NCBI GenBank assembly: GCA_005882115.1
Contig: VBEG01000036.1
Location: forward strand, 1-38,485
From: Chloroflexota bacterium
Lineage (GTDB): Bacteria > Chloroflexota > Dormibacteria > Dormibacterales > Dormibacteraceae
Reading direction: 5' to 3'
DNA: 38,485 nucleotides
Positions 17,935 through 33,131 of this stretch are shown one piece after another. Every line of letters starts with the position of its first letter. Position 1 is the stretch's first letter. The notes below the pieces were generated by a model. The model ran no database searches and was not told the origin of the DNA. It saw only the letters and a list, made by a program, of their open reading frames with translations. The position numbers were made by a program, and so were the translations under genes.

Positions 17935-19545
17935 TTAGAGCCCGGCGCTCTCTCGGTTCGTCCGGTAACCGACGGCCGCCTTGAGCGACTCGGTGAGGTC
18001 CTCCAGTCGAATCGGTTTGCTCATGTAGTCGTCGAATCCCGCACGAAGGCATCGCTCCTGGTCGCCCGGCCCGGCCATGGCGGTCAGCGCGATCAGTCGA
18101 GGCCGGTTTCCCCGCGGCCAGCGGCGGCAGATCGCCTCGGCGGCCACGAGACCGTCCATCTCGGGCATGAGGACGTCCATGAGCAACGCGTCGTATGGCT
18201 GCTGGGCGACCGCGGCGACGGCCTCGCGGCCGTTCGAGACGACGTCGACCGAATGGCCAAGCTTGCTGACCAGCCTCTTGAGCAGGTTCTGGTTCAAGGC
18301 GTTGTCGTCCGCGATGAGCACCCGGAGCGCCCCGGGCACTACCTCTTGTGTGGACTGAGGCTGAGCGCCGCGTCCACCGACCTGGATCATCACGTCATGT
18401 AGGGTCCGCGGCGGGACCGGCTTGGTCAGGGTCGCCTGGATGACGCCGCTGTCGGCGGCCTCGGCCTCGGCCGGCCCGGGTGTCATCGAGCTGATGAGCA
18501 CGATCGGCATCTGTTCGGCCCGTCGCACGGCTCGAAGCGACGTCGAGATCTCGAGGCCGTCGATGGCCGGAGCGCGGTGCTCGATCAGGGCGATATCGAA
18601 CGGCCTGCCCATCTGGATCGCACCCAGGGCGTCTTCCGGCGTCGCCGAGGTTGCGTTGGCCCCCCACTGCTCGACCTGAAGCGCAAGCACGCGCTTCTCA
18701 GTCGGATCGGCGGCGATGACGAGCACCCTCATCCCCTCGAGCGTCAGGAGCGTGGTCGCCACCGCGCCGGGCAGCGCCTCCGCGAGAATAGTGAAGCCAA
18801 AAGTCGTGCCGGCGTCAGGCCCGGCCTCCACACCGCCCTGCTCGACGCGAAGCTCGCCGTCCATCAGCTCGATCAGTTGCTTGGTGGTGCGCAGGCTGAG
18901 GACGGCAAGGCGATCTCCCGGCTCGAGCTTGTCGTAGGGACCGGTGACCCCGTCCAGAGCTCCACGCAGGATCCTGGCCGGCACCCCGCGGCCGGTGTCG
19001 CGAATCTTGAACTGGAGAGCGACGAGGCCGCCCCGGTCGTCGGACGAGAGCTCGACGCCGATGCCGCCCCGATTCGTGCGATCGACGGCGCTATGGAGCA
19101 GGGTCAAGAGGATCTGCTCGAGGCGGCGCGAGTCGCCGATCACGACCTTGGGGACACCGGGCGCCGCGTTGAAGGAGATGTCCAGGCTCTTGGCGCCCGC
19201 CGCCTCCGAAACGAGTCCGAGGCAGCTCTCGACCATCGAGCGCACATCGAATGGATGCAGCGCCAGCTCGAACTCGCCGCTCTCGATCGTCGCCGAATCC
19301 AGCCACTCGTCGATGATGCGTGCGACCTGCTCGGCGCCAGCCTCGACGATCGCGGCGAGCTCGCGTTCCTCACTTGTCTCGGCTCCGGTCGAGAGCAGGC
19401 CGGCCGCGCCGACCACAGCGTTGAGCTGGTTACGCAGCTGGTGGCCGAGGTCCGCGAGGACATCCGCGTCGACGTGAACGAGGTTGCGGTGGCCATCACC
19501 AGCATCGCCTTTCGGTGGAGCGCCGAGCTCGCGAAATTCACCCAT
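17935..19545 (-). CDS. Hybrid histidine-kinase-like protein with two receiver domains, catalytic motifs degraded
   Basis: 536 residues, no membrane segment. A HisKA-like helix carries His35 in GHQLRNQLN, where the usual HE(L)RTPL residues are Q, N and Q. The HATPase region has DTGRGVP (183-189), but the N-box NLLxNA reads TLLHSA, so the Mg-binding Asn is Ser152. Receiver 1 (about 272-388) has Glu322 in place of the phosphorylated Asp (ALIEHRAPAIDG) and Lys375. Receiver 2 (about 407-526) is intact: ADD, MDVLMPEMDG with Asp457, LTAM and SKP. The ATG overlaps the cpaF stop (TGATG), tying it to the Tad operon. Probably a scaffold or regulator read out through receiver 2, rather than an active kinase; inferred. 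Confidence 0.85.
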   Translation of the reverse strand: MGEFRELGAPPKGDAGDGHRNLVHVDADVLADLGHQLRNQLNAVVGAAGLLSTGAETSEERELAAIVEAGAEQVARIIDEWLDSATIESGEFELALHPFDVRSMVESCLGLVSEAAGAKSLDISFNAAPGVPKVVIGDSRRLEQILLTLLHSAVDRTNRGGIGVELSSDDRGGLVALQFKIRDTGRGVPARILRGALDGVTGPYDKLEPGDRLAVLSLRTTKQLIELMDGELRVEQGGVEAGPDAGTTFGFTILAEALPGAVATTLLTLEGMRVLVIAADPTEKRVLALQVEQWGANATSATPEDALGAIQMGRPFDIALIEHRAPAIDGLEISTSLRAVRRAEQMPIVLISSMTPGPAEAEAADSGVIQATLTKPVPPRTLHDVMIQVGGRGAQPQSTQEVVPGALRVLIADDNALNQNLLKRLVSKLGHSVDVVSNGREAVAAVAQQPYDALLMDVLMPEMDGLVAAEAICRRWPRGNRPRLIALTAMAGPGDQERCLRAGFDDYMSKPIRLEDLTESLKAAVGYRTNRESAGL

Positions 19546-21038
19546 CAGTACAGCTGCTCCGGGGAAGGTTGATTGGTCGGCATGAACATCGCGGCGGGAA
19601 ACTCGACGCCATTGCTCTGGAAGTGCGCCTGGTAGTTCGAGCGCACGCCCGTCGCGGTGTGAAATCCGACCGCGCGGCCTTCAGGGGTGACCGCGATCTG
19701 CCGGAAAGTAAACAGCTCTTGCAGCGCGATCTCCCCGTCGACCATGCCGAGCACCTCGGTGACGCCGACGATCTTGCGCGCGCCTCCGCGCAGTCGCTCC
19801 GTCTGGACGACGATGTTGATCGCCGACGAGATCTGCCCGCGGATCGCGCGCGATGGAAGCTCGGAGCCGGCAAGCAGGACGAGCGTCTCCAGCCGCGTGA
19901 TCGCGTCGCGCGCGCTGTTTGCATGAAGCGTGCTCATCGACCCGTCGTGGCCGGTGTTCATCGCCTGCAGCATGTCGAGAGCCTCTCCGCCGCGGACCTC
20001 GCCGACGATGATGCGGTCCGGCCGCATGCGCAGAGAGTTGCGCACGAGGTCGCGGATGGCGATCTGGCCATGCCCCTCGACGTTGGCGGGTTTGGACTCG
20101 AGGCTGATCACGTGCACCTGCCGCAGGCGGAGCTCGGCCGCATCCTCGCACGTGACGATGCGCTCATCCCCCGGAATGAAACCCGACAGGACGTTGAGCA
20201 ACGTGGTCTTGCCGGAACCCGTGCCACCCGACACGATGACATTGAGACGCGTCTTGACGGCAGCGTCGAGGTACTCGAGGATGGCCTCGCTCGAGCCGCC
20301 GGCGGCGACGATTCGCTCCGGCGTCAGAACCTCGCGTCCGAATTTGCGGATCGTCAGGCATGGGCCGTAAATCGCTACCGGAGGGATCACGACGTTAACC
20401 CGCGACCCGTCCTTCAACCGCGCATCGCACATGGGCTCCGACTCGTCGACGCGGCGACCGATCGTCGACACGATGCGGTCGATGACTCGGCGCAGACTCG
20501 CCTCGTCCTCGAACGCGAGGTTGGTCAGCTCGATCCGGCCGTGCCGCTCGACAAAGATCTGCTCCGGCCGGTTGACCATGATCTCGGTGATGTCCGGGTC
20601 CCGCAGCGGCGCCTCGAGCGGACCAAGGCCGATGACCTCGTCGAACAGGATCTCCACGAGGCGCTCGCGATCCGCCGCCGTGACCAGCGCGGCGGGGGGC
20701 TTGGCGCGAAAGTGCTCTTCTGTGAGCTGCATCAAGAGCCGCCGGATCCCGGCGCGGTTGCTGATGTCGATCGCGGCCGCGTGACGCCGCAGCATGTCCG
20801 CGTGGATCTCGGCCTTCGCCGCCGAAAGGGCCGGACTCAGGACCGTCGGTAGCTCCGCGGTCCGGGGGTCCGCCGTGACGGCCTGGTTGGGCGCGGTCTC
20901 GCGCGGCACGGCACGGCGTTCGACCGGGGCGATGGTCGGCGAGCCGTCGGGCGGCGTCGCCGGCTCGGCCGCCGGCTCGGGCTGCGTGGCGACCGGGGCC
21001 TGCTGGTAGCGGCGGTCGAACCGCTCGGAGAGCTTCAC
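19545..21038 (-). CDS. cpaF: Tad/Flp pilus assembly ATPase CpaF (TadA)
   Basis: Hexameric secretion ATPase powering Tad pilus assembly. 497 residues from GTG 21038, which overlaps the HEAT-gene stop (GTGA). A Pro/Ala-rich N-terminal linker (about 12-75) precedes the N-terminal domain. Motifs: DITEIMVNRPEQIFVER, Walker A SGGTGSGKTTLLN near 267-279, Asp box VTCEDAAELRL, Walker B RMRPDRIIVGEVRGGEALDML, and His box STLHANS. It sits on the minus arm of a divergent Tad locus, apart from the other tad genes on the plus arm. Confidence 0.95.
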   Translation of the reverse strand: MKLSERFDRRYQQAPVATQPEPAAEPATPPDGSPTIAPVERRAVPRETAPNQAVTADPRTAELPTVLSPALSAAKAEIHADMLRRHAAAIDISNRAGIRRLLMQLTEEHFRAKPPAALVTAADRERLVEILFDEVIGLGPLEAPLRDPDITEIMVNRPEQIFVERHGRIELTNLAFEDEASLRRVIDRIVSTIGRRVDESEPMCDARLKDGSRVNVVIPPVAIYGPCLTIRKFGREVLTPERIVAAGGSSEAILEYLDAAVKTRLNVIVSGGTGSGKTTLLNVLSGFIPGDERIVTCEDAAELRLRQVHVISLESKPANVEGHGQIAIRDLVRNSLRMRPDRIIVGEVRGGEALDMLQAMNTGHDGSMSTLHANSARDAITRLETLVLLAGSELPSRAIRGQISSAINIVVQTERLRGGARKIVGVTEVLGMVDGEIALQELFTFRQIAVTPEGRAVGFHTATGVRSNYQAHFQSNGVEFPAAMFMPTNQPSPEQLY

Positions 21039-21871
21039 TTCGCAACCGCCCGCCTGACCAGGCGGCGGTGGGCGCGGTCGGCCGCTGTCTTGACGACCGG
21101 GTCCGGATCGCTCTCGGCAAGCCGGCTCAACCCGCCGACGCCGGCACGATCGCCGATCGTCGCCAGCGCCTTGCACGCGGCGACGCGCACCCTCTTTGGC
21201 CACCTGCGGTCGTGCGCGATGCCAAGCAGCGGCGACACCCGGAGCACGTCGCGGCGCAGGCCGCAGGCGAGAACGGTCACCACGGCCGCGCGTTCGCTGG
21301 CCGGCTGTCGCATGAGGGCCTCGATGTCGACGTCGGAGGCGGCGCGGGCGAGGGCGATGGCCAGCCGGTAGACCGGAATCCGCTCTGACGACGCCATCAG
21401 GAGCTCGACCGCTCGGCGGCCGCCGAGCTGGCCCAACGAACGGACCGCAGCTTCGCGGACGGGCGGCTTCGGGTCATCCAGCAGGTCGCCGATCCACAGC
21501 ACCGAGTCGGTCATCCGGGCGGCGGCGCACAGCCGCGCCGCGGCGGCTCGGGTCGCCGGGTTGGAGCTGACCAGGGCGTTCATCAGCTCGTCGTACAGGT
21601 TGGAACGGCGAAAGAGCTCCTGGACCATCCAGTGACCGATCACCCCTACACCGGGGCGCCCGAGGGCGATCTCGATCAGGCGGGCGACCGGCTGCGAATC
21701 CGCGAGAAGCTCCGCCGCCGTGGCGTTAAGGACCGCGGCCCGCTCTCCGGCCAGGGCGGTATTAAGCACCCGGTCAACGCGCCCGGCGACCTTAGACCGC
21801 CCGACGGCGCGGTTGGGCGCCGAGATCGCGGGCCTGGTGTTTGAGCCATTGCTGCGAAGCGAAGGGTCCAT
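21035..21871 (-). CDS. HEAT-repeat protein, Tad-associated
   Basis: 278 residues of mostly paired alpha helices with HEAT/PBS-lyase-like repeats. Clear repeats are LLDDPKPPVREAAVRSLGQLGGRRAVELL, VRVAACKALATIGDRAGVGGLSRL, and DPDPVVKTAADRAHRRLV at the end. The N terminus is basic and Asn/Ser-rich. It has no signal peptide or membrane segment, so it is a cytoplasmic scaffold. It is the first gene of the minus arm, translationally coupled to cpaF and thus to the kinase-like protein, suggesting a three-protein module. Role unknown. ATG start. Confidence 0.75.
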   Translation of the reverse strand: MDPSLRSNGSNTRPAISAPNRAVGRSKVAGRVDRVLNTALAGERAAVLNATAAELLADSQPVARLIEIALGRPGVGVIGHWMVQELFRRSNLYDELMNALVSSNPATRAAAARLCAAARMTDSVLWIGDLLDDPKPPVREAAVRSLGQLGGRRAVELLMASSERIPVYRLAIALARAASDVDIEALMRQPASERAAVVTVLACGLRRDVLRVSPLLGIAHDRRWPKRVRVAACKALATIGDRAGVGGLSRLAESDPDPVVKTAADRAHRRLVRRAVAK

Positions 21872-21886: not shown

Positions 21887-21893
21887 TACAGTA
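21887..21893. promoter_or_regulatory. Shared symmetric -10 element of the divergent Tad arms
   Basis: The plus strand reads TACAGT (21887-21892) and the minus strand reads TACTGT (21893-21888), overlapping by five bases. The first lies nine bases before the cpaE TTG, the second 16 bases before the HEAT-gene ATG. One site may therefore drive both arms. No -35 boxes stand out. Confidence 0.4.
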
Positions 21894-21901
21894 TCCGCGT
21901 T

Positions 21902-23203
21902 TTGAACGCCCGTGAGGTCCCGAAAACCTTACAGCGGGCGCGGGAGGAAGAGCCGAGCCAGGTGGGCGCCAGCGACAGCGCACCCGCCGGAGACCAGACG
22001 CCGTCGGCAGTTCAGATGCGGATGCGCATTCTGGAGATGTCCTCCGTTTTCTCGGAGCTGAGCGACGGCGCTTTGCGAGCGGTCGCCCGCCGCATGCGCA
22101 CGGTCGGGCTGGCGGCTAGGGACACCCTCCGCCTGGGCGGCCAGGGCGGTGATGTCGTGATCTTCCTGGCTTCGGGCCAGGTGGAGGAGTCGATCAGCGA
22201 CTCCTCGGGGAAGGTCCTGCTGACCAGGAGACCCGCCCCTGGCGACCTCGTCATCCTCCCCGCGCCCCGGACAGGCGGCCGCTACACGACCAGCATCTAC
22301 GGGCTGACCAGCGCGGTCCTTCTGACGCTCGACCGGGACGGCCTGGTCGAGGGACTGGGCGCAGAGGTCGAAAAGGTCGCCCTCGTCCTGGACAAGCTGT
22401 GGGAGCAGGAGCTATCCGCCGCCGCGGCGAGCGAGGCTCAAAGCGCCTCCCGCACGGCCGCGCCCCTCGTCGCGTTCTTCTCCGCCAAGGGCGGGGCCGG
22501 CACGACAACTCTGGCGATCAACACGGCGGCGGCCCTGGCTCGCAAGTTCCCTCGCCAGGTTCTCTTGATCGACCTCGGCGCGCCATTCGGCCACGCCGCG
22601 CTCTTCGCCGACCTGATCGCCACGGGATCGATCGCGAGCGCGACCAAGGCGGCTCAGGTGGATTTCGAATCGGTCCTGCGCGGCAACATCGTCAACCACC
22701 GCACCGGGATGGGCGTCCTTCCCGGAACGCTGCGGCCGGAGGAGGTAGACACGCTGACCGGGGAGCGCGTCGGGCGCGTTCTTGACGTTGTGGTCGCCTG
22801 GCAGAAAGTGATCGTCGTCGACCTGGGGACCTCGCTGGCCGAGGCCGCGCTTGCGGTGATCGAGCGCGCCGAGTGCCTGGTCATGGTGGTGCCGCCCGAG
22901 ATCGCGGCGATGACCGACGCGCGGCGGTCGCTCGCGATCTTCCGCGACATCATGAACGTGCCTGATAACCGGATGGAGCTGGTCCTCAACCAGCGTTCCC
23001 CCCATCCCCCGCTCGACCGCGCGGCGATCGAGTCGATCCTCGGCCGCAAGATGTCGGTCGTCGTCGGCTTCGACGACTCGCGCCCAGAGGACTCGACGCT
23101 GGCCGGTGGACTCGTCCTGCAACACGACCCGTCGTCGATGGTGTCTCGCGGAGCGACGGAGATCGCGCGGGTGGTCCTGGCCAGCCTCAAGCTCGATGCG
23201 TGA
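21902..23203 (+). CDS. cpaE: CpaE/TadZ-like ATPase with N-terminal cyclic-nucleotide-binding-like domain
   Basis: 433 residues. Residues about 45-150 look like a CRP/cNMP-binding beta-roll: VFSELSDGALRAVARRM, IFLASGQVEESISDSSGKVLLTRRPAPGDLV, TSAVLLTLDRDGL. Residues about 188-430 are a ParA/MinD-type ATPase with the deviant Walker A KGGAGTTT (196-203), LLIDLGAPFGH, VIVVDLGTSL and VLNQRSPHP. CpaE/TadZ helps localise Tad pili; known members usually carry a receiver-like N-terminal domain instead. The phosphate-binding Arg/Glu cassette of true cAMP binders is not obvious. The start is a TTG; no Shine-Dalgarno. Stop overlaps tadE by 8 bases. Confidence 0.85.
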   Translation: MNAREVPKTLQRAREEEPSQVGASDSAPAGDQTPSAVQMRMRILEMSSVFSELSDGALRAVARRMRTVGLAARDTLRLGGQGGDVVIFLASGQVEESISDSSGKVLLTRRPAPGDLVILPAPRTGGRYTTSIYGLTSAVLLTLDRDGLVEGLGAEVEKVALVLDKLWEQELSAAAASEAQSASRTAAPLVAFFSAKGGAGTTTLAINTAAALARKFPRQVLLIDLGAPFGHAALFADLIATGSIASATKAAQVDFESVLRGNIVNHRTGMGVLPGTLRPEEVDTLTGERVGRVLDVVVAWQKVIVVDLGTSLAEAALAVIERAECLVMVVPPEIAAMTDARRSLAIFRDIMNVPDNRMELVLNQRSPHPPLDRAAIESILGRKMSVVVGFDDSRPEDSTLAGGLVLQHDPSSMVSRGATEIARVVLASLKLDA

Positions 23204-23732
23204 CCATGAAAGGACTGGCCCCATCCCCCGGCTGAGCCGGGTACTTCCCCGCAAGCGGGGAAGAGGTCAGGCGCTGGTCGAGTTTGCCATTGCCCTTCCG
23301 GTGCTGGTCATTCTCGTCGCCGGTGTGCTCGAGCTCGGCCGCGGCTACGCATTCGCGGTCGAGACCTCCGACGCGGCTCGGGACGCGGCGAGGTTCGTAG
23401 CCGGCAAGACCGCGTCCACCAACGGTCCCGGCCTGGGGGCGATGTGCAACCTCATCACGGCCGACCTGGCTGCGGTCACGACGAACATCACCTGCCCAAC
23501 GCAGGTGAACCACGCACCCCCCTTCGTCGTCGGGACGGACTACACGAAACCGACCGCCGGACAGGCCGTGGTCGCGGTGTACTGCGGGACCAGCGTCAAC
23601 TGCACCGGGTCGATACCGACGCTCTATCAGTCCGAGATCGACGTCTTCGTCTACTACGGATTCAGCGACCTCAACATCCTGGGCGGCGGGATCACCATCA
23701 CAGGTTCGAGCCGAGCCACCACGTCGTGGTGA
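23196..23732 (+). CDS. tadE: TadE-like pseudopilin 1
   Basis: 178 residues. A basic leader ends RKRGRG, followed by the prepilin cleavage pattern G|QALVEF with Glu at +5, then the hydrophobic helix ALPVLVILVAGVLELGRGYAFAV and the TadE signature SDAARDAARFVAG. The exported part has four cysteines, including NITCP and VYCG. It would be a substrate for the prepilin peptidase at 2658-3335. The ATG at 23196 overlaps the cpaE stop by 8 bases; the first codons contain two strong hairpins. Its own TGA overlaps the next gene (GTGA). Confidence 0.88.
   Translation: MRDHERTGPIPRLSRVLPRKRGRGQALVEFAIALPVLVILVAGVLELGRGYAFAVETSDAARDAARFVAGKTASTNGPGLGAMCNLITADLAAVTTNITCPTQVNHAPPFVVGTDYTKPTAGQAVVAVYCGTSVNCTGSIPTLYQSEIDVFVYYGFSDLNILGGGITITGSSRATTSW
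23227..23263 (+). promoter_or_regulatory. Two adjacent hairpins within the first codons of tadE
   Basis: CCCGGC-TGA-GCCGGG at 23227-23241 is followed two bases later by CTTCCCCGC-AA-GCGGGGAAG at 23244-23263, a perfect 9-bp stem. Both lie about 10-22 codons into tadE. They could slow translation, attenuate the transcript between cpaE and the pilin genes, or be the remnant of a dispersed repeat caught in the reading frame. Confidence 0.5.
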
Positions 23733-24346
23733 AGCGCACCAAACACGGTCAAGCGCTGGTTGAGTTCGCGCTCATCGCCCCGGCCCTCTTCCTTTTGATT
23801 GGCGCGACTGTCGACCTCGGGCGCGGCCTTTTGATCTACACGATGCTCCAGGGCGCCTCGCGCGACATGGCGCGGCAGGCGGTGCTGGGCTACTACAGCG
23901 GCTCGAACACCCTCTCGCCCACATGTACGGCGCTCACCACGCCGTGCACCCTGGGCCCGCTGACCAACGGCGCTCACCAGCTCGACCCGCTCGGAATGTC
24001 CGTCGTGTACCAGGACTCGACGGCGATCTCCAGCCCTCCTACGTACGGGACATACGTCGCCAACGCGAACCCGCTGCAGCCCGGGACCATCACCCTGACC
24101 GGCGCGATCAATGCGAGCACCGTGTACGTCTTTGTCTATGAGCTCGATTCCACCGGCGGCAATCCCAACCCACGCTGGAGCTGTCCCTCATGCGCGGGGG
24201 CCAGTGGTGCGGCTGTCCGCACGTCCGGCCATCAGCTCGTCGTGGTCGACCTCAAGCTCCAGTGGAAGCCCGTCCTGAACTCGCTGCTCGGGATTCCAAG
24301 CACGATCACGTTCGACTCCCAGTCGGTGGAGACCCTCGAGTACTGA
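23729..24346 (+). CDS. TadE-like pseudopilin 2
   Basis: 205 residues from the GTG at 23729 (a second in-frame GTG is one codon upstream). The leader is very short (KRTKHG), followed by G|QALVEFALIAPALFLLIGATVDLGRG with Glu at +5 and the signature LQGASRDMARQAVLGYY. The exported portion carries four cysteines and ends with WKPVLNSLLGIPSTITFDSQSVETLEY, a C-terminal strand pattern common to TadE/TadF proteins. Coupled by overlaps to tadE on one side and tadG on the other (TGATG). Confidence 0.88.
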   Translation: MKRTKHGQALVEFALIAPALFLLIGATVDLGRGLLIYTMLQGASRDMARQAVLGYYSGSNTLSPTCTALTTPCTLGPLTNGAHQLDPLGMSVVYQDSTAISSPPTYGTYVANANPLQPGTITLTGAINASTVYVFVYELDSTGGNPNPRWSCPSCAGASGAAVRTSGHQLVVVDLKLQWKPVLNSLLGIPSTITFDSQSVETLEY

Positions 24347-26670
24347 TGCGCAAGCGCGAGCGTGGGCAGGTGCTCGTCATCGTCGCGGTGTGGATGCTCG
24401 CATTGATCGGCTCGGCGGCGCTGATTCTCCTCACGGGCTCCGTGGAGTGGCAGCGCAACCAGCTTCAGCAGCTTGCCGATGGTGCCGCGACCGACTCGGC
24501 GCTCACGATCGGCGTCGGGTGCACGGCTGGGTCGGCGAGCACCATCATCACGCAAGCCGACAACTTCCTGGCCACACAGCGGACGCGAACCGGCAGCCTG
24601 AGCATCGGCGGAAGCTGCGCGGCCGGCTACACCGGTACCGACACCTTTGCCGGCGCCATGAGCGAAACGATCCACTACCCGTACCGCGGCCATCAGCAAC
24701 AGGTCGAGGTGATCCTCACGGTCGCCCTGCCGATCTCCTTCGGCAACTACATGGGTGCGAGCAACACCAACGTGACCCGCCGCGCCGTCGGTCAGCAGCT
24801 CAGCGGATCGGCGACCGCGATCAGGGCCACGACCCTGTCGTGCACCGGCGGGCAGTTCAATGTCGGGGGCAGCCTTGAAGTCTCCAACGCGATCACGCTC
24901 AGCGGCAGCTGCGCCGTCTACGCCCATGACCGCTTTGAGGCGGCCTCGAGCACGTACTCGGACCTCGGCAACGTCACGGTCTACGCCAACGGCCAGACCT
25001 GGGTGGGCGGTGGCGGCTCCTGCGCGGCCGGCGCCAACTCCGGGTCGAGCAACGCCGTCTGCGCGGACGGCTCCGAGCTTTCGGGCCACAACGCCACGAC
25101 CTGCGGGACGTCGGGCGCGAGCGCGTTTCTGACCGCGGGGGTGGCCGCGATCAATGCCGATCCGTGCGCGGCGGGAAAGGGCCCTGTGCCGGTACCGCCA
25201 GTCTCTACGTCGCTTCCGCCGGAGCCGAACACCGACCCGGCCGCGATCGCGACGCTTCGCAACGGCGCAGGTGGAGCCCTCGGATCGGCGTGCAACCCGG
25301 CCGGGGTATATCCAAACATCACCGCCGGCGGGGTTGTGGTCGGCACGGGGCTTGGCCCGTCGCCCGCGAGCGCCGATGCGAGCGGCTTCTATCACTTCAA
25401 ACCGAGCTGCTATGGATATCTGAACCTGACCTCGATGGCGGGCGGCATCTCGAACCGCCAGGCCGGGACCAGGGTCGGACCCGTCAGCCACTTCGTCACC
25501 CCGACGCTGCCTGGTGCAAGCCTGGCCGGCACGCTGCTCGTGGCCGCGATCAACTGCCCGACGACCCCCAACCGTTTCCAGGCGCCCGCGAGCTGGGTCC
25601 AGGCAATGGAGGTCAACCTTGCGAGCGCAGGTCGAACGGAGATCTGGTATTACCCCAACAACCCAGGCGGGATCGCCAGCGCGACCTTCACGATCAACCC
25701 GGCGAACATCAACTGCGACGCCCAGATGACCGAATGGTCGGGCGTGGCGACGGCCGCTCCTCGGGACCAGACAGGCAGCGCGACCAACGTGCTCTCAGGA
25801 AGCCTGACCGTCTCGACCGCAGGAGCGATGGCGCAGAGCGGCGAGCTCGTCATCACCGCCGACGGGTTCAACAAGGGAGTCCCTGGCCAGACCTTCACGC
25901 GCGGCGGCGGCTGGAACGCGTTGTCCAGCGACCCCGCCAACGGCTTTGCGAGCGAATATCGCCTGGACCTGCCCGCCGGAGTCGCCAGCGAAACCATGAC
26001 GGCCAACCCGGCGACGGCGTGGTCGGCGGCCATCGCCACCTTCAAGCCGGCGACCGGTGGCGCCGGCGCCGTCCTCGATCCCGGCTTCTACAACTTCAAC
26101 GGCTCGGGCTTCGCAGGCGGAGGTGGCATCTGCCTGAACGGCGGCATGCTGCTCGCCCAAGACGTGACGATCGAGTTGGTCAACCAGGCGGGTCTTTCCA
26201 CGGGCACATGCGCGGCGGGCGGTGGCGCGAATTGCGCGGCCGCGACCTGCCAGTTCGGGTCCACGCCATGCTCGATCTCGGCGTGTCCCCCCAACGCCGT
26301 GGCCGACTCGGCGGGGGGCGGGTACACCTGGTTTGCGGCGCCTTGCTCGTCAGCTCCGAGCGGGGACGCGACCTGCCCAGGTTCGAGCTGGTGCCCGGTC
26401 GGGGATCGCGCCTGCTGGAACCTGCTGATCTACGCACCCGCGAGCAATACGGGCCAGATCGCGATCAAGGGCACGGCCGCCGAGCACTGGCTCCTTGGGT
26501 CCGTGTACTGGCCGGGAACGTGCACCGACACCGTCAACGGCACCAGCACGCTCGCCGGGACGCTGTCCTGCGGCACGCTTTCTGTCTCGGCGGCCGCCGG
26601 AGCGGGGATCGCCGTGGGCAGCGACTACGGGATCAACACCGCCCTGGTCCAGGCCGTTCTTGTCGAATGA
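24346..26670 (+). CDS. tadG: Large TadG-like secreted protein with inserted beta-sandwich module
   Basis: 774 residues. Basic leader RKRERG, then QVLVIVAVWMLALIGSAALILLTG, a membrane anchor like a pseudopilin but with Ile instead of Glu at +5. The TadG region shows LQQLADGAATDSAL, RRAVGQQL and repeated Gly/Ser/Cys-rich segments; I count 24 cysteines, half of them after residue 570. A segment of about 200 residues (about 369-568: GTLLVAAINC, EWSGVATAAPRDQTGSA, GGGWNAL, SEYRLDLPAG, WSAAIATFKP) looks like a separate adhesin-type beta-sandwich placed inside the TadG fold, which resumes with VLDPGFYNFNGSGFAGGGG. Likely surface-exposed at the pilus base or tip. Confidence 0.82.
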   Translation: MRKRERGQVLVIVAVWMLALIGSAALILLTGSVEWQRNQLQQLADGAATDSALTIGVGCTAGSASTIITQADNFLATQRTRTGSLSIGGSCAAGYTGTDTFAGAMSETIHYPYRGHQQQVEVILTVALPISFGNYMGASNTNVTRRAVGQQLSGSATAIRATTLSCTGGQFNVGGSLEVSNAITLSGSCAVYAHDRFEAASSTYSDLGNVTVYANGQTWVGGGGSCAAGANSGSSNAVCADGSELSGHNATTCGTSGASAFLTAGVAAINADPCAAGKGPVPVPPVSTSLPPEPNTDPAAIATLRNGAGGALGSACNPAGVYPNITAGGVVVGTGLGPSPASADASGFYHFKPSCYGYLNLTSMAGGISNRQAGTRVGPVSHFVTPTLPGASLAGTLLVAAINCPTTPNRFQAPASWVQAMEVNLASAGRTEIWYYPNNPGGIASATFTINPANINCDAQMTEWSGVATAAPRDQTGSATNVLSGSLTVSTAGAMAQSGELVITADGFNKGVPGQTFTRGGGWNALSSDPANGFASEYRLDLPAGVASETMTANPATAWSAAIATFKPATGGAGAVLDPGFYNFNGSGFAGGGGICLNGGMLLAQDVTIELVNQAGLSTGTCAAGGGANCAAATCQFGSTPCSISACPPNAVADSAGGGYTWFAAPCSSAPSGDATCPGSSWCPVGDRACWNLLIYAPASNTGQIAIKGTAAEHWLLGSVYWPGTCTDTVNGTSTLAGTLSCGTLSVSAAAGAGIAVGSDYGINTALVQAVLVE

Positions 26671-26713: not shown

Positions 26714-27514
26714 ATGTCAATTGCCTCCTCCGTCCTCGCCAGACCTCGCCGCGGCCGCCTGTACATCGTCATCGGGGCGGTGCTCGCGGTGCTCGCCTTC
26801 GCCACCGCGGCCGGCATCGCCAGCCTGCCTCTGATCCAGGGAACGACAACCGGCGTCAAGGTCGTGGTCGCCAGCCACGACATCCAGGCGAGGACCGTCA
26901 TCCAGGACTCAGACCTCACGCTCGCCAGCATCAACCCCACCCCGCCGCAGTCGTTCACGGCGGTCAACAAGGTCGCCGGCAAGGGAGCGCGCGTGGACAT
27001 CCCGGCGGGCATGCCCATCAGCTCCAACCTCGTGGCGCCGTCGGGCGACCTGGTGAGCAGCAGCGACGTCGCCTACCTGCCCATCCCCAAGGGTTGGGTC
27101 GCGGTAACCGTTCCCACGAGCGAGCAGGTCGGCGTCGGCGGCTATGTCCAGGTCGGTGACCGGATCACGATGCTCGCGACCATCAACACCCAGGCCTTCG
27201 GGCAGAGCCCCGGCCGGGCGGTCGTGCTTACCGTCTTTCGCGACATCGACGTCCTGCGCGTCGGACCAAGCGGCACCTCGAGTTCCGGTACGCCGACCGG
27301 CGTAGTGAGCAGTCTCACAGTGCTGATGAATGGATGCGACGCGGAATACCTCTTCTGGCTGCTCAACAACGCGGCCATGAAGTACGAGCTGGAGTCGTAC
27401 ACGGACTACCAGGGCCTCCCCACGCAACCCGACAGCAAATGCCCCGGCGTGTCATCGGCGACCGGCGTCGGTCCGAAAGACGTCGAGGCGCGCTGGCATT
27501 TCACCACGCATTAA
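26714..27514 (+). CDS. cpaB: Tad pilus assembly protein CpaB (RcpC), SAF domain
   Basis: 266 residues. One N-terminal membrane segment (YIVIGAVLAVLAFATAAGIAS) leads to an SAF domain: VKVVVASHDIQARTVIQDSDLTLASI and GARVDIPAGMPISSNLV. The RcpC/CpaB beta-clip follows: VAVTVPTSEQVGVGGYVQVGDRITML. In diderms this protein works with the secretin; no secretin is encoded here, which fits a monoderm envelope. The ATG lies 43 bases after tadG, the largest gap in the plus arm; no Shine-Dalgarno is visible. Confidence 0.88.
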   Translation: MSIASSVLARPRRGRLYIVIGAVLAVLAFATAAGIASLPLIQGTTTGVKVVVASHDIQARTVIQDSDLTLASINPTPPQSFTAVNKVAGKGARVDIPAGMPISSNLVAPSGDLVSSSDVAYLPIPKGWVAVTVPTSEQVGVGGYVQVGDRITMLATINTQAFGQSPGRAVVLTVFRDIDVLRVGPSGTSSSGTPTGVVSSLTVLMNGCDAEYLFWLLNNAAMKYELESYTDYQGLPTQPDSKCPGVSSATGVGPKDVEARWHFTTH

Positions 27515-27517
27515 CTG

Positions 27518-28459
27518 ATGGGCACCGCGATCATCCTGGTCGCGGTCGCCGCGGCCATCGGGGTGGGCCTCGTCGTCTTCGGTACCGTCCGCTCACAGCA
27601 GGCGGCAAGCCCTCAGGAGTCTGTCCGCGCCTCGTACCGGACGCTCGCCGACGTCCGCGAGCAGCTGCGTCGCCGGTTCGATCCCACAGGTACGCCCACG
27701 TGGATCGCGTCGGACGATAGGACCAGCAAGCTGCAGCGCGACCTCGTCAGCGCGGACCTCGAGCTGCGCCCATACGAGTTCCGACTCATCCAGGCCGGTG
27801 TGGCTTTGGTGCTCGCGGTGGTGGGGCTCCTCCGCTTCGGGATCGGCGCTGAGTTTCTCGTCCTCGCGGTCATCGGCTATGTGGTCCCGTCGCTTTACCT
27901 ACGCAACCGTCGAGGCCACAGGCTCCGCGAGTTCGACGCGGCGCTGCCGCGCACGATGGAGCTGATCGCCAACTCCATGAAGGCCGGGCAGTCGGTCGCC
28001 CAGTCGCTCAGCGCCGTGACCGACAACGCCGACCCGCCGGTCTCGGACGAGTTCGCGCTCGCTCGTCGGGAGATCGAGCTGGGTGCGTCTGTCGACAGCG
28101 CGCTCAACAACATGGTCAAGCGCATCGGCAGCAACGACCTGCGGCTGATGGTGATGGTGATCACGATCCAGCGCTCCGTCGGAGGCGACCTCCCCGCCAT
28201 TCTTGCGACTCTCGCGGACACGATGCGGCAGCGCGAGGAGATGCGGGCCGAGATCCTTGCCGCGACCGCTCAATCGCGCGCCAGCGCCCTGATCATCACG
28301 CTGCTGCCTATCGCGGCCGCTTTGCTTCTCTACTTCTTCGTCCAGGACTACTTCCGGCCGATGCTGACCAACCCCATCGGCTGGGTGATGCTGGTCTTCG
28401 CGGGCTTCCTGCTGTTCATCGGTAACGTCATCATCCGGCGCCTGACGGCGATCGCATGA
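27518..28459 (+). CDS. tadB: Tad pilus inner-membrane platform protein TadB
   Basis: 313 residues, T2SSF (GspF-like) family. N-terminal membrane helix (IILVAVAAAIGVGLVVFGTV), two central helices (about 92-130), a cytoplasmic four-helix T2SSF domain (FDAALPRTMELIANSMKAGQSVAQSLSAV to ADTMRQREEMRAEILAATAQSRASA) and two C-terminal helices. With TadC it forms the platform over the CpaF ATPase. Three bases after cpaB; overlaps tadC (ATGA). Confidence 0.92.
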   Translation: MGTAIILVAVAAAIGVGLVVFGTVRSQQAASPQESVRASYRTLADVREQLRRRFDPTGTPTWIASDDRTSKLQRDLVSADLELRPYEFRLIQAGVALVLAVVGLLRFGIGAEFLVLAVIGYVVPSLYLRNRRGHRLREFDAALPRTMELIANSMKAGQSVAQSLSAVTDNADPPVSDEFALARREIELGASVDSALNNMVKRIGSNDLRLMVMVITIQRSVGGDLPAILATLADTMRQREEMRAEILAATAQSRASALIITLLPIAAALLLYFFVQDYFRPMLTNPIGWVMLVFAGFLLFIGNVIIRRLTAIA

Positions 28460-29385
28460 ACGCGCTGCCCCTGATCATCGGGATCGCGGCCGCAGCCGGC
28501 GCGTACCTGCTGACCATCGGCATCATCGCCGCGCGAGCTGCCGACGCCACCGCGCTGGCCCGCGAACGCCTCTCGCGCCAGGAGATCGGCCTCGGACAGA
28601 GCGCGGTCGCCCTGCAACTCGAAAAGCCCTTCTTGCAGCGGCTGTTCGGCCCCGCCCGACGCTGGCTCGACCGCCAAACGATGCGAATGACCCCGGAGGC
28701 GCAAGCGGCCAACTTTCGCCGGCAGCTCGACTTCGTCGGCAATCCTCTTGGCCTCGACCCGGCCGGCCTGCAGACGCTGCGAATCGCCGCAGCGGCGGGC
28801 CTGGGTGCGATCGGCACCGCGGTCGGCCTTTTCATCGGTCCGCCCTTTGCCATCGGGTTGTCACTCGTGATCGGCGTCGCCCTCGGGTTCTACCTGCCGG
28901 TGTTCTGGCTCGATCAGCTCGTGCGCGACAGGCGGGCCGAGCTCGAGGCGTCACTGCCGAATGCACTCGACGTCGTCGCGATCAGCATGGAGGCCGGACT
29001 CGGCCTCGATCGGGCTCTCGAGCAATTGGTCCGGCACCAGGACGACTCGCTGACCCTGCTCGTGGCTCGAGCGCTGCGCGAGATCCAGCTGGGCCGGCCG
29101 CGCCACAAGGCGCTTGGGGAGATGGCCGAGGCAACGGGCATCGACGACTTCTCGTCGCTCGTGCGCGGCATCCTCTACGCGGAGCGGACGGGCGTGCCGA
29201 TCTCGCGCACGATCGCCGCACACGCAGCGCAGATGCGTGTGAAGCGGCGGTTGAAGATCCGCACCGAGGCGGCTCGTGCCTCGCTGAAGATCCTGCTCCC
29301 CACGGTGGGATGCGTGTTTCCGACCCTGTGGCTGGTCCTGCTCGGCCCCGCGTTGATCGTCGTGTTGACCCTCTCTTCTAAGTAA
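28456..29385 (+). CDS. tadC: Tad pilus inner-membrane platform protein TadC
   Basis: 309 residues, T2SSF family. N-terminal helix (LPLIIGIAAAAGAYLLTIGIIAARA), a central membrane pair (about 105-155), the T2SSF helices ELEASLPNALDVVAISMEAGLGLDRALEQL and LVRGILYAERTGVPISRTIAAHAAQMRVKRRLKIRTEAARA, and a C-terminal helix. Last gene of the plus arm. Its last eight bases overlap the end of the convergent hydrolase gene, so no separate terminator fits between them. Confidence 0.92.
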   Translation: MNALPLIIGIAAAAGAYLLTIGIIAARAADATALARERLSRQEIGLGQSAVALQLEKPFLQRLFGPARRWLDRQTMRMTPEAQAANFRRQLDFVGNPLGLDPAGLQTLRIAAAAGLGAIGTAVGLFIGPPFAIGLSLVIGVALGFYLPVFWLDQLVRDRRAELEASLPNALDVVAISMEAGLGLDRALEQLVRHQDDSLTLLVARALREIQLGRPRHKALGEMAEATGIDDFSSLVRGILYAERTGVPISRTIAAHAAQMRVKRRLKIRTEAARASLKILLPTVGCVFPTLWLVLLGPALIVVLTLSSK

Positions 29386-30004: not shown

Positions 30005-31005
30005 AAGGTTTTGCGGACGATCAGATGCCGGTCGGTCTCGCGGTAGGGCTCGAAGCCGGCCCGGAGAAACATCTGGAGGGGACCGCGATAGTTCCCTTGC
30101 GGTGAGTCTTGCTTTCGCGCGGGATACGCCTCCGCGACGCGAACGCCGCGGGCCCGCAGGCGCTCCAGCGCGGCGTCCAGCAACGCGGCGGCCACGCCGT
30201 GATGCCGGTACGGGGCGGCGATGACGAAGCACGCCAGCGAGCCAACCCCCCGCTGCTCCGCTGCGTTGAGGCCGAACCGATGCATCACCCCGTTGAGCCG
30301 CGTCGTCTCGCCGTAGTTGGACCATCCGACCGCCTTGCCGTCGACGTAGGCGAGCAGCCCCGTCACCGTCCCGCCGGTGATCCCTTTGCTCATGTCCCGC
30401 CGGTTGTCGTCCGCGGTGCGCACCGCCCACTCCTCGTCCGTCTGGGTGCGGTGCGTCTCCATGCAGTAGCACGACTGCCAACCCGGGTAGTCGCGAAATG
30501 CGTCGTGATCGAAGAATGCCAGGTAGTCGGCCAGGCGCTCAGGAGTCACGTCATGGACGGTGATCTCCCCGATGGTGGGAAGGCGCGCGATCTCAGCCTG
30601 AGCCGCAGGATCGTGCTCAACCCGCAGTCCCTGCAAGATGTTGTCGGCTTCCGACTCGAGCAGGCCTGCCACCACCTCGTTGGCATCCCAAGACATGCGC
30701 ACCCGGCAACCCTTTCCGGCGCGCGCGACCTCCCATGTGAGCGTGTGCGGCGGCTGCTTCGCGAAAGCCGCCGAATACAGATACCTCGTGTGCATCACAA
30801 GACGTTTGGGCGCCTTGACCTCGACGATCTCTGATTCCTCTGCCGCTGCGCCGCCGGCATCGAGCCAGCGGATCGTGCTGCCTTCCGCAAACTCCCCGTC
30901 AGGGGTGAGCCGGTAGTACCAGCGATGGCGCTCGGGAGAGACGAGCGCGCTCCATGCGACCTTGGCATGGACGTCCAGGTGGACCTGGCGCGATCCGCGC
31001 GTCAT
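30001..31005 (-). CDS. SRPBCC (AHSA1-like) - GNAT acetyltransferase fusion
   Basis: 334 residues. Residues 1 to about 140 are an SRPBCC/AHSA1-type hydrophobic-pocket domain (VHLDVHAKVAWSALVSPERHRWYY, GEFAEGSTIRWLDAGG, APKRLVMHTRYL). Residues about 147-334 are a GNAT domain with the acetyl-CoA motif YRHHGVAAALLDAALERLRARG and the ending FLRAGFEPYRETDRHLIVRK. A Cys-Tyr-Cys stretch (WQSCYCMETH) starts the GNAT part. It starts at ATG 31005 overlapping the rel stop (ATGA). Substrate unknown; the SRPBCC domain could bind a small ligand or lipid that gates acetylation. Confidence 0.8.
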   Translation of the reverse strand: MTRGSRQVHLDVHAKVAWSALVSPERHRWYYRLTPDGEFAEGSTIRWLDAGGAAAEESEIVEVKAPKRLVMHTRYLYSAAFAKQPPHTLTWEVARAGKGCRVRMSWDANEVVAGLLESEADNILQGLRVEHDPAAQAEIARLPTIGEITVHDVTPERLADYLAFFDHDAFRDYPGWQSCYCMETHRTQTDEEWAVRTADDNRRDMSKGITGGTVTGLLAYVDGKAVGWSNYGETTRLNGVMHRFGLNAAEQRGVGSLACFVIAAPYRHHGVAAALLDAALERLRARGVRVAEAYPARKQDSPQGNYRGPLQMFLRAGFEPYRETDRHLIVRKTL

Positions 31006-33131
31006 GAGGCTTCGCGCGCGACCGTATGCACGTCTTTGACGCCTTCGAGCTTTTCCATCAGGCGCGAGAGCTGGGCGAGCGAGTCGATCTCCACCGTCGC
31101 CGAAACCACAGCGGTCTTGTCATCGTAGACGTGCACCTCGAGGGCGGACATGTTGACGCGGTTCTCGGCCACGACGGTGGCGATGTCGCGCATCAATCCC
31201 TGGCGGTCCCAGGCCTCGATCTTGATCGCGACCGGGTAGAGGTGCGTCGCGTCCGACTCCCAGTCGACCGGCACCACCCTCGCCGAGTCCTGCGCGTTGA
31301 CCGCGTTGACGCAGTCGGCGCGATGCACCGTGACGCCTTTCCCGCGCGTGGTGTAGCCGACAATCGCGTCGCCGGGCACAGGCTGGCAGCAGCTCGCGAC
31401 CGTGGTCAGGATCCCCTTCTCCCCGCGCACGAGGACACGAGGCGAGGGCTGGATCTGCGGGATGAGCGGGATGGTGCGCAGGTCGCCGCCTGGCGTCTCG
31501 AGACTGAGCGCCATGCGCATGACCACGGCGTGGGGCGAGAGGTCGCCGTAGCCGATCGCGGCCGTGAAGTCGTCGATCGACGCGTACCTGTGGAGGTTCG
31601 CGATCTCCTGCAGCTTCGCCTCGGGCAGGTCGGCGAGGCTGAGGCGATGCATCCGGTGGAGCTCCTTTTCCAGCAGGTCGCGGCCCTTGGTGACGTTCTC
31701 CTCGCGCCGCTGACTCTTGAACCACTTGCGGATCCGCTCCTTCGCCGACGCGCTCTTGACGAAGCTCAGCCAGTCGCGGCTGGGGCCGTGCGGGCCCTTC
31801 GAGGTGAGGATCTCCACGATCTCCCCGTTCTGCAGCGCGTAGTCCAGCGGCACCATCCGGCCGTTGACCTTCGCACCGATGCAGCGGTGGCCGACCTCGG
31901 TGTGGATGCGATACGCGAAGTCGACCGGGGTCGAATCCGACGGAAGATTGATGACGTCGCCCCGGGGCGTGAAGACGTAAACCTCGTCCTGGAACAGGTC
32001 GACCTTGACCGTGTTGAGGAACGACTCGGCGTCACCCACCTCGTTCTGCCACTCGAGCAGGCTGCGCAGCCAGGAGAGCTTCTGGTCGAAGCTCGCATCC
32101 TTGCCGCCCTCCTTGTAGGTCCAGTGCGCGGCGACTCCGAACTCCGCCACGCGATGCATGTCCTGGGTGCGGATCTGGATCTCGATCGGCTCGCCCGTGT
32201 GCGTGATCACCGTCGTGTGCAGCGACTGGTAGCCGTTGGACTTGGGCATCGCCACGTAGTCCTTGAACCTTCCTGGCATGGGCTTCCACAGCGAGTGGAC
32301 GACGCCGAGTACCCCATAGCAGTCGCGCACGCTTTCAACATGGACGCGGATGGCCGACAGGTCGTAGATCTCGGAGAAGTCCTTGCTCTCGCGGGTCATC
32401 TTCTGCCACACGGAATAGATGTGCTTCGGCCGGCCGGTGATGTCGGCCTGGATGCCCACCTTTTCCAGCTCGCGCGCGAGGATCTCGCGCAGGTCGTTGA
32501 CCAGGGACTCGCGCTCACCGCGCTCGCGAGCGATGCGGCTGACGACGTCTTCGTAAGCCTCGGGCTCGAGGTTGCGAAACGCGAGGTCTTCGAGCTCCCA
32601 CTTGATCTGGCCGATGCCGAGCCTATGGGCCAAGGGCGCGTAGATGTCGAGGGTCTCGCGCGAGATCTTGCGGCGCTTCGCTTCGGCGAGCGGCTCGAGG
32701 GTGCGCATGTTGTGCAGCCTGTCGGCGAGCTTGATGAGGACGACCCTGAGGTCCTCCGCCATCGCGACCATCATCTTCCGGATGTTCTCGGCCTGCTGCT
32801 GCTGGTCGGTCCGCAGCGAGATCCGGCCCAGCTTGGTGACGCCGTCGACGAGCCTTGCGACTTCGGGACCGAACTCCCGCTTGACCTCGTCGGCGGTCAG
32901 GTTGGTGTCCTCGACGGTGTCGTGGAGCAGGGCGGCCGCGATCGTCTCGGCGTCCAGCTCGAGGTCGGCGAGGATCGCCGCCACCTCCAGCGGGTGGTTG
33001 ACGTAGTCCTCGCCGGACAGCCGGCGCTGGCCCGTATGGGCCGCGGCGGCCCTCTCGTACGCCTTGCGGACCATCTGCTGGCCCGTAGGGTCGAGGTGGT
33101 CGGCGACTCTCAGGAGCTCGGAAACCGTCAT
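31002..33131 (-). CDS. rel: Bifunctional (p)ppGpp synthetase/hydrolase (Rel/SpoT family)
   Basis: Makes and degrades the stringent-response alarmone. 709 residues with the full domain order: HD hydrolase (RRLSGEDYVNHPLEVAAIL, then LLHDTVEDT with His70, Asp71, Glu74 and Asp75), synthetase (IYDLSAIRVHV, GRFKDYVAMPKSNGYQSLHTTVI), TGS (VFTPRGDVINLPSDSTPVDFAY), zinc-finger/helical region with SCCQPVPGD, and C-terminal ACT. The RFKD motif in the synthetase and the intact HDxxED make both activities likely. ATG start with no strong Shine-Dalgarno. Heads a three-gene operon and is divergent from the HD-GYP gene. Confidence 0.96.
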   Translation of the reverse strand: MTVSELLRVADHLDPTGQQMVRKAYERAAAAHTGQRRLSGEDYVNHPLEVAAILADLELDAETIAAALLHDTVEDTNLTADEVKREFGPEVARLVDGVTKLGRISLRTDQQQQAENIRKMMVAMAEDLRVVLIKLADRLHNMRTLEPLAEAKRRKISRETLDIYAPLAHRLGIGQIKWELEDLAFRNLEPEAYEDVVSRIARERGERESLVNDLREILARELEKVGIQADITGRPKHIYSVWQKMTRESKDFSEIYDLSAIRVHVESVRDCYGVLGVVHSLWKPMPGRFKDYVAMPKSNGYQSLHTTVITHTGEPIEIQIRTQDMHRVAEFGVAAHWTYKEGGKDASFDQKLSWLRSLLEWQNEVGDAESFLNTVKVDLFQDEVYVFTPRGDVINLPSDSTPVDFAYRIHTEVGHRCIGAKVNGRMVPLDYALQNGEIVEILTSKGPHGPSRDWLSFVKSASAKERIRKWFKSQRREENVTKGRDLLEKELHRMHRLSLADLPEAKLQEIANLHRYASIDDFTAAIGYGDLSPHAVVMRMALSLETPGGDLRTIPLIPQIQPSPRVLVRGEKGILTTVASCCQPVPGDAIVGYTTRGKGVTVHRADCVNAVNAQDSARVVPVDWESDATHLYPVAIKIEAWDRQGLMRDIATVVAENRVNMSALEVHVYDDKTAVVSATVEIDSLAQLSRLMEKLEGVKDVHTVAREAS

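Follow-up and report, generated by a model that had tools for sequence, protein, structure and literature searches.

The CpaE/TadZ protein encoded in this Tad pilus locus, the putative positioning factor of this adhesion pilus, carries, in place of a receiver domain, an N-terminal cyclic nucleotide-binding (CNB) fold of the CRP type in front of its ATPase, and the residues with which canonical CNB domains hold a nucleotide have been lost from it. We read the CNB domain as a mainly structural coupling module that stands in the receiver's place and has lost cyclic-nucleotide control. We hold this reading with somewhat better than even confidence, as it draws on the helix geometry of a structural model and on work in a different organism. 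The window, meaning the whole stretch of 38,485 nucleotides that was analyzed, is one whole contig of a 3.36-Mb draft genome that is 96.5% complete, and its features are collected in Table 1.

Table 1. Features of the window relevant to the CNB-type CpaE and its Tad locus.
Feature	Position	Strand	Details	Basis
Hybrid histidine kinase	17935..19545	-	two receiver stretches; kept beside cpaF	Pfam; synteny
cpaF/tadA motor ATPase (T2SSE)	19545..21203	-	true start probably within listed ORF	Pfam T2SSE 2.8e-64
HEAT-repeat protein	21035..21871	-	divergent neighbor of cpaE	Pfam HEAT_2 1.5e-17; synteny
-10-like element TACAGTAT	21887..21894	+	7 nt 5' of TTG start	conserved (18 orthologous upstream regions aligned)
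CNB-CpaE (CpaE/TadZ-type ATPase, N-terminal CNB fold)	21902..23203	+	433 aa, TTG start	ORF and orthologs
CNB (CRP-type) fold	22007..22333	+	residues 36-144 (about)	Pfam cNMP_binding, profile score, AlphaFold model
Rebuilt phosphate-binding-cassette segment PGDLVILPAPRTGGRYTTSIYG	22238..22303	+	residues 113-134	column counts vs canonical paralogs
Continuous helix, CRP C-helix equivalent	22334..22441	+	residues 145-180 (36 residues); leads from CNB fold to ATPase	AlphaFold model
Deviant-Walker ParA/MinD/CpaE ATPase domain	22457..23191	+	residues 186-430	
tadE-like pseudopilin	23196..23732	+		Pfam TadE 8.4e-11
Second tadE-like pseudopilin	23744..24346 (start approximate)	+		Pfam TadE 3.9e-12
Large tadG-like gene	24340..26670 (start approximate)	+	no Pfam match	named by position
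cpaB/rcpC	26714..27514	+		Pfam RcpC 5.7e-11, SAF 1.4e-10
tadB platform protein	27518..28459	+		Pfam T2SSF 9.7e-18
tadC platform protein	28456..29385	+		Pfam T2SSF 5e-15
RelA/SpoT	31002-33131			
HD domain (HD_5/HD-GYP type) with GAFs	33220-36204			

The open reading frame of cpaE is a genuine gene, with genus-wide orthologs at 77-89% identity and a TTG start that is kept across their aligned upstream regions. These regions (18 aligned) share the consensus TACA(G/T)TAT within window positions 21887-21902, and the cpaE transcript is probably leaderless. A genome search for this motif returned no other copies, although the pattern used also misses the window's own copy, at three mismatched positions. 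The hybrid kinase, cpaF and the HEAT-repeat gene lie on the minus strand, and cpaE, the two tadE genes, the tadG-like gene, cpaB, tadB and tadC on the plus strand. To the extent of each contig, this layout is kept in all 27 orthologous loci, with cpaF, tadB, tadC, cpaB and the pseudopilins encoded alongside, in agreement with the initial annotation of the gene as the CpaE of a Tad locus. The HEAT-repeat protein adjoins cpaE and cpaF in both Tad loci (window 21035-21871; L035:9503-10441) and is possibly an unnamed Tad component. A further Tad-type locus (L186:4500-9230, G000:C28) encodes cpaB, cpaF, tadB and tadC; no cpaE was seen in the stretch examined.

The same annotation had taken the N-terminal domain to be CRP-like rather than receiver-like, and several lines of evidence bear this out. 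The Pfam model cNMP_binding covers residues 71-149 with an E-value of 1.1e-4 for the whole protein and of 1.5e-5 when the domain is searched by itself. This match falls slightly short of the curated cut-off; 72 of 76 full-length relatives also hit the model (best, 2.7e-25). A profile built from the paralogs only, with the window's own group (group A) left out, gave the window domain 62.4 bits versus 11.8 for the top of 5,000 shuffles, and about 0 bits for the N-terminal parts of receiver-type CpaEs. Profile-profile comparison between the window group and the canonical paralog returned a probability of 98.3%. We found no receiver match in the window protein; Response_reg was matched, at 1.4e-26 or better, by each of five receiver-type CpaEs tested from the class. 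The controls with shuffles and receiver-type CpaEs thus exclude both a receiver fold and a chance match. AlphaFold run on an alignment of 76 sequences yielded a model with pLDDT 82 and pTM 0.81, which was used instead of the single-sequence prediction (pLDDT 37). Rather than a receiver-like or unrelated fold, it consists of two helices (residues 36-46 and 55-62), an eight-strand roll (66-144) and the long helix that follows, with a short helix (121-124) in the cassette, a region modeled with only moderate confidence (block pLDDT 73-76). Taken together, the Pfam match, the paralog profile, the profile-profile comparison, the AlphaFold model and the receiver controls make the assignment of the domain as a CNB fold, and not a receiver, secure. 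In the PDB fold search with the full model the ATPase half dominates the ranking, and a search of a viral library gave one CRP-like protein at rank 5, a weak match (E 6.4e-5). The nearest PDB sequences to the window-group domain are the CNB-homology domains of KCNH1 (5e-5).

Three CNB-CpaEs are encoded in the genome: one in group A (the window, Tad locus 1), one in group B (contig C1) and one in group C (contig C7, second Tad locus). The group C locus has the order cpaB-cpaE-HEAT-cpaF-tadB-tadC-tadE-tadE, and its placement in a Tad locus recurs in 21 loci. The group B gene on C1 is surrounded by genes for a rhodanese, a glycosyltransferase, an Fe-S biosynthesis protein and a chaperonin, and none of the group B flanks examined contained a Tad gene. 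A plasmid search returned no relative of this Tad-less paralog. Group B proteins (L107, L106, L118, L134, L137) end in a Lys-rich, GFKLGR-like tail that is absent from the window group and possibly targets the membrane.

Among 42 draft genomes of the family, 29 encode a group A protein, eight encode other groups only and five none; a CNB-CpaE in 37 of the 42 rules out that the window protein is a lone oddity. The family is one of uncultured soil bacteria. Close relatives of the window's genome were assembled from metagenomes under the titles 'Chloroflexi bacterium' or 'Candidatus Dormiibacterota bacterium', and the labels of many of them give a soil depth. In 59 genomes from other families of the class, the matches listed cover the ATPase only. 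The fusion survey sampled the window's phylum, and in 400 of its genomes full CNB-plus-ATPase matches outside the family occurred only in three other families (f55, f67 and f9), which rules out a fusion restricted to the family of the window. The cassettes read in these relatives are mostly canonical-looking, and most of the relatives are not encoded near Tad genes. Several of these fusions from the other families stand in tandem pairs (L176, L177, L178, L179), again mostly outside Tad loci.

In a tree built from the ATPase domains alone and rooted with ParA/MinD, one change separates the receiver-type from the CNB-type CpaEs. CpaEs of sister families carry a receiver at the N-terminal position, and the CNB side holds the CNB-CpaEs from this family as well as those from other families in the phylum. 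Groups A, B and C each form one clade (bootstrap 99-100); the receiver side is weaker (65/93). The fusion of CNB domain and ATPase may have arisen once. One protein (L156:5473-7155, also L038) combines a receiver, a CNB domain and a ParA/MinD ATPase in a single open reading frame, and since it is placed inside the CNB clade, its receiver looks like a later addition. An ATPase-only relative within the CNB clade (L039:9232-10056) adjoins histidine-kinase genes. Most likely, the CNB domain took over the place of the receiver in Tad loci and serves there as a coupling or docking module, perhaps with a non-canonical ligand.

In canonical CNB domains, G118, E119, R128 and A130 of the phosphate-binding cassette hold the ribose and phosphate. 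The canonical G-E-x-x...R-[TS]-A cassette is present in none of the 26 aligned group A members, which instead have I118, L119 (25 of 26; V once), Y/F128 and T130, so that G-E...R-T-A has become I-L...Y-x-T. In this new form I118, P120, R123, T130, I132 and G134 are invariant (n = 26). Every one of the 26 group B members, in turn, has an intact G118-E119...R128-[TS]129-A130; G118 (21/21) and E119 (19/21) remain in group C, yet position 128 is Gln in 17 of 21. Cassette and locus partly guided the sorting of groups B and C for these column counts, and the ATPase-only tree gives the same groups. In group A, median dN/dS was 0.19 over the CNB domain, 0.14 over the ATPase and 0.56 over residues 2-35; group B gave 0.06 over each of the two domains (for part of the group B sequences), all by a counting method and with synonymous sites partly saturated. 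The group A domain is thus constrained but changed, under purifying selection. As the cassette is rebuilt in all 26 members and conserved in its new form, ordinary cAMP or cGMP binding by the window-group domain is unlikely, judging from the pocket as read in the alignment.

The ATPase half matches the CpaE-homolog model TIGR03815 at 1.7e-14, under the cut-off of that model, and the family profile matches the ParA-family structure 3ea0 at 4e-36. The signature lysine of the deviant Walker A motif (Lys196-Gly-Gly) is invariant in groups A, B and C. Thr takes the place of the P-loop lysine in the window protein; across group A this residue is Thr, Val, Ala or Leu, in group B Arg and in group C mostly Gly. 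The switch-I Asp position is His in nearly all aligned members (His231 in the window protein). From these residues, ATP binding seems plausible and ATP hydrolysis uncertain.

Class III cyclase domains number at least 11 in the genome, and one of them is part of a fusion with a CpaF motor. This CpaF-type ATPase and cyclase share one open frame (L184:2-3760, minus strand, G000:C51; L200:5244-10514, G003), which comprises T2SSE, cyclase and AAA_16 domains and reaches up to about 1,800 residues. About twenty further genomes of the family match the fused query over all or nearly all of its length (80-91% identity), which excludes misassembly as its source. The FTD motif of the predicted cyclase is kept in all 14 loci examined, two of which are the same gene. 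In the three genomes read, tadE, cpaB and tadB stand a few kilobases from the fusion, and no cpaE was seen in the stretch examined. As a hint of cyclic-nucleotide wiring these cyclases, with the fused one among them, are stronger than the RelA/SpoT and HD genes of the window. For this bacterial family we tentatively sketch a cyclic-nucleotide circuit within Tad machines in which the CpaF-cyclase makes a signal that a CNB-CpaE, at least the Tad-less paralog with its intact pocket, reads, and in which the Tad-locus copies, including that of the window, have gone over to another ligand or become structural, although we think it doubtful that the whole of it holds. That the Tad-less CNB-CpaE serves the CpaF-cyclase machine is a guess, and group B is also present in genomes in which the fusion was not seen. 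The literature searched, which left most subscription papers outside, contained no description of a CpaF-cyclase fusion.

The initial annotation proposed that pilus localization responds directly to a nucleotide or other small ligand bound by the domain. The CNB fold, the number of cyclase domains in the genome, the CpaF-cyclase fusion in the same bacterial family and the one paralog with a canonical pocket all fit a cyclic nucleotide in this role; however, with all four cassette residues (Gly, Glu, Arg and Ala) replaced in every group A member and the Pfam score under its curated cut-off, we consider it improbable for the window CpaE. Given the conserved new cassette residues and the purifying selection on the domain, another ligand is possible, and the domain might be a sensor of changed specificity whose conserved pocket binds a nucleoside, (p)ppGpp, c-di-GMP or a lipid and thereby switches CpaE assembly. 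There is a precedent in the regulatory subunits of trypanosomatid PKA, in which the cassette Arg and Ala are replaced and purine nucleosides are bound instead of cAMP (PMC10959531). The Arg and Ala are likewise replaced in the window group, but the trypanosomatid protein binds nucleosides via its cassette Glu, and the window-group cassette has no such conserved Glu. Moreover, packing or contact with another protein could explain the conservation just as well. Regarding the c-di-GMP and (p)ppGpp enzymes that had been placed close to cpaE, RelA/SpoT and HD_5/HD-GYP genes do exist, but they lie 8-10 kb off and outside the unit of cpaE, with other genes between and nothing that links them to CpaE, and we found no convincing GGDEF or EAL motifs across the window. 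A sensor of this kind seems to us rather unlikely.

The window protein could, alternatively, be a ParA/MinD-like regulator merely located in a Tad locus. The Tad-less paralog and the relatives from other families, mostly outside Tad loci, suggest that the CNB-ATPase family did not need Tad genes. Against this, the locus is kept in all 27 orthologs, a second Tad locus independently carries a CNB-CpaE (21 loci), and our search saw no receiver-type CpaE elsewhere in the genome, which together leave this explanation very little room.

As regards the reading that we favor, a mainly structural coupling module, the C-helix of CRP is the dimer interface. In the model of the window protein the equivalent helix runs directly into the ATPase and would tie CNB-CNB contacts to the ATP-dependent dimer of the ATPase, and the coupled dimers would assemble around the CpaF motor. 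In the Caulobacter model, six CpaE dimers ring the CpaF hexamer, and contacts between dimers are likely made via the receiver domains (PMC13170226); the CNB domain could make contacts of the kind proposed there. Cyclic-nucleotide control would have been lost by the pocket of the window's Tad-locus protein and was probably kept in the Tad-less paralog. The strong conservation of the rebuilt cassette is as expected if it still binds a ligand and counts against a purely structural role.

Compared with known systems, the window protein shares with CpaE/TadZ proteins (receiver plus deviant-Walker ATPase) the ParA/MinD-type ATPase, the signature lysine, the Tad locus and the two-domain layout, and differs in having a CNB domain where they have a receiver. 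The TadZ of E. rectale (PDB 3fkq) came at rank 31 in the PDB fold search, below ATPase-only structures (277 columns, TM 0.43/0.52, rmsd 7.9). With CRP/FNR and other CNB proteins it has in common the fold and the long C-helix, and the Tad-less paralog the canonical cassette as well; unlike CRP/FNR, it has no DNA-binding domain, its C-helix leads into an ATPase and the cassette of its group is rebuilt. The CNB-homology domains of KCNH channels, which top the PDB sequence matches for the window group, likewise have a CNB fold without direct cyclic-nucleotide control, but are part of a channel. No description of a CNB-CpaE was found in the literature searched (most subscription papers lay outside the search).

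CpaE/TadZ has been described as a receiver plus an ATPase, with the role of the N-terminal domain unsettled, and an unrelated fold in its place amounts to a natural experiment. Whatever job the two N-terminal domains share, such as dimer contacts or docking to the motor, must not need phosphorylation chemistry. In addition, the three paralogs of one genome, with pockets intact, half-lost and rebuilt, show CNB domains that stand nearer to or further from nucleotide binding, and make the loss or change of ligand directly testable.
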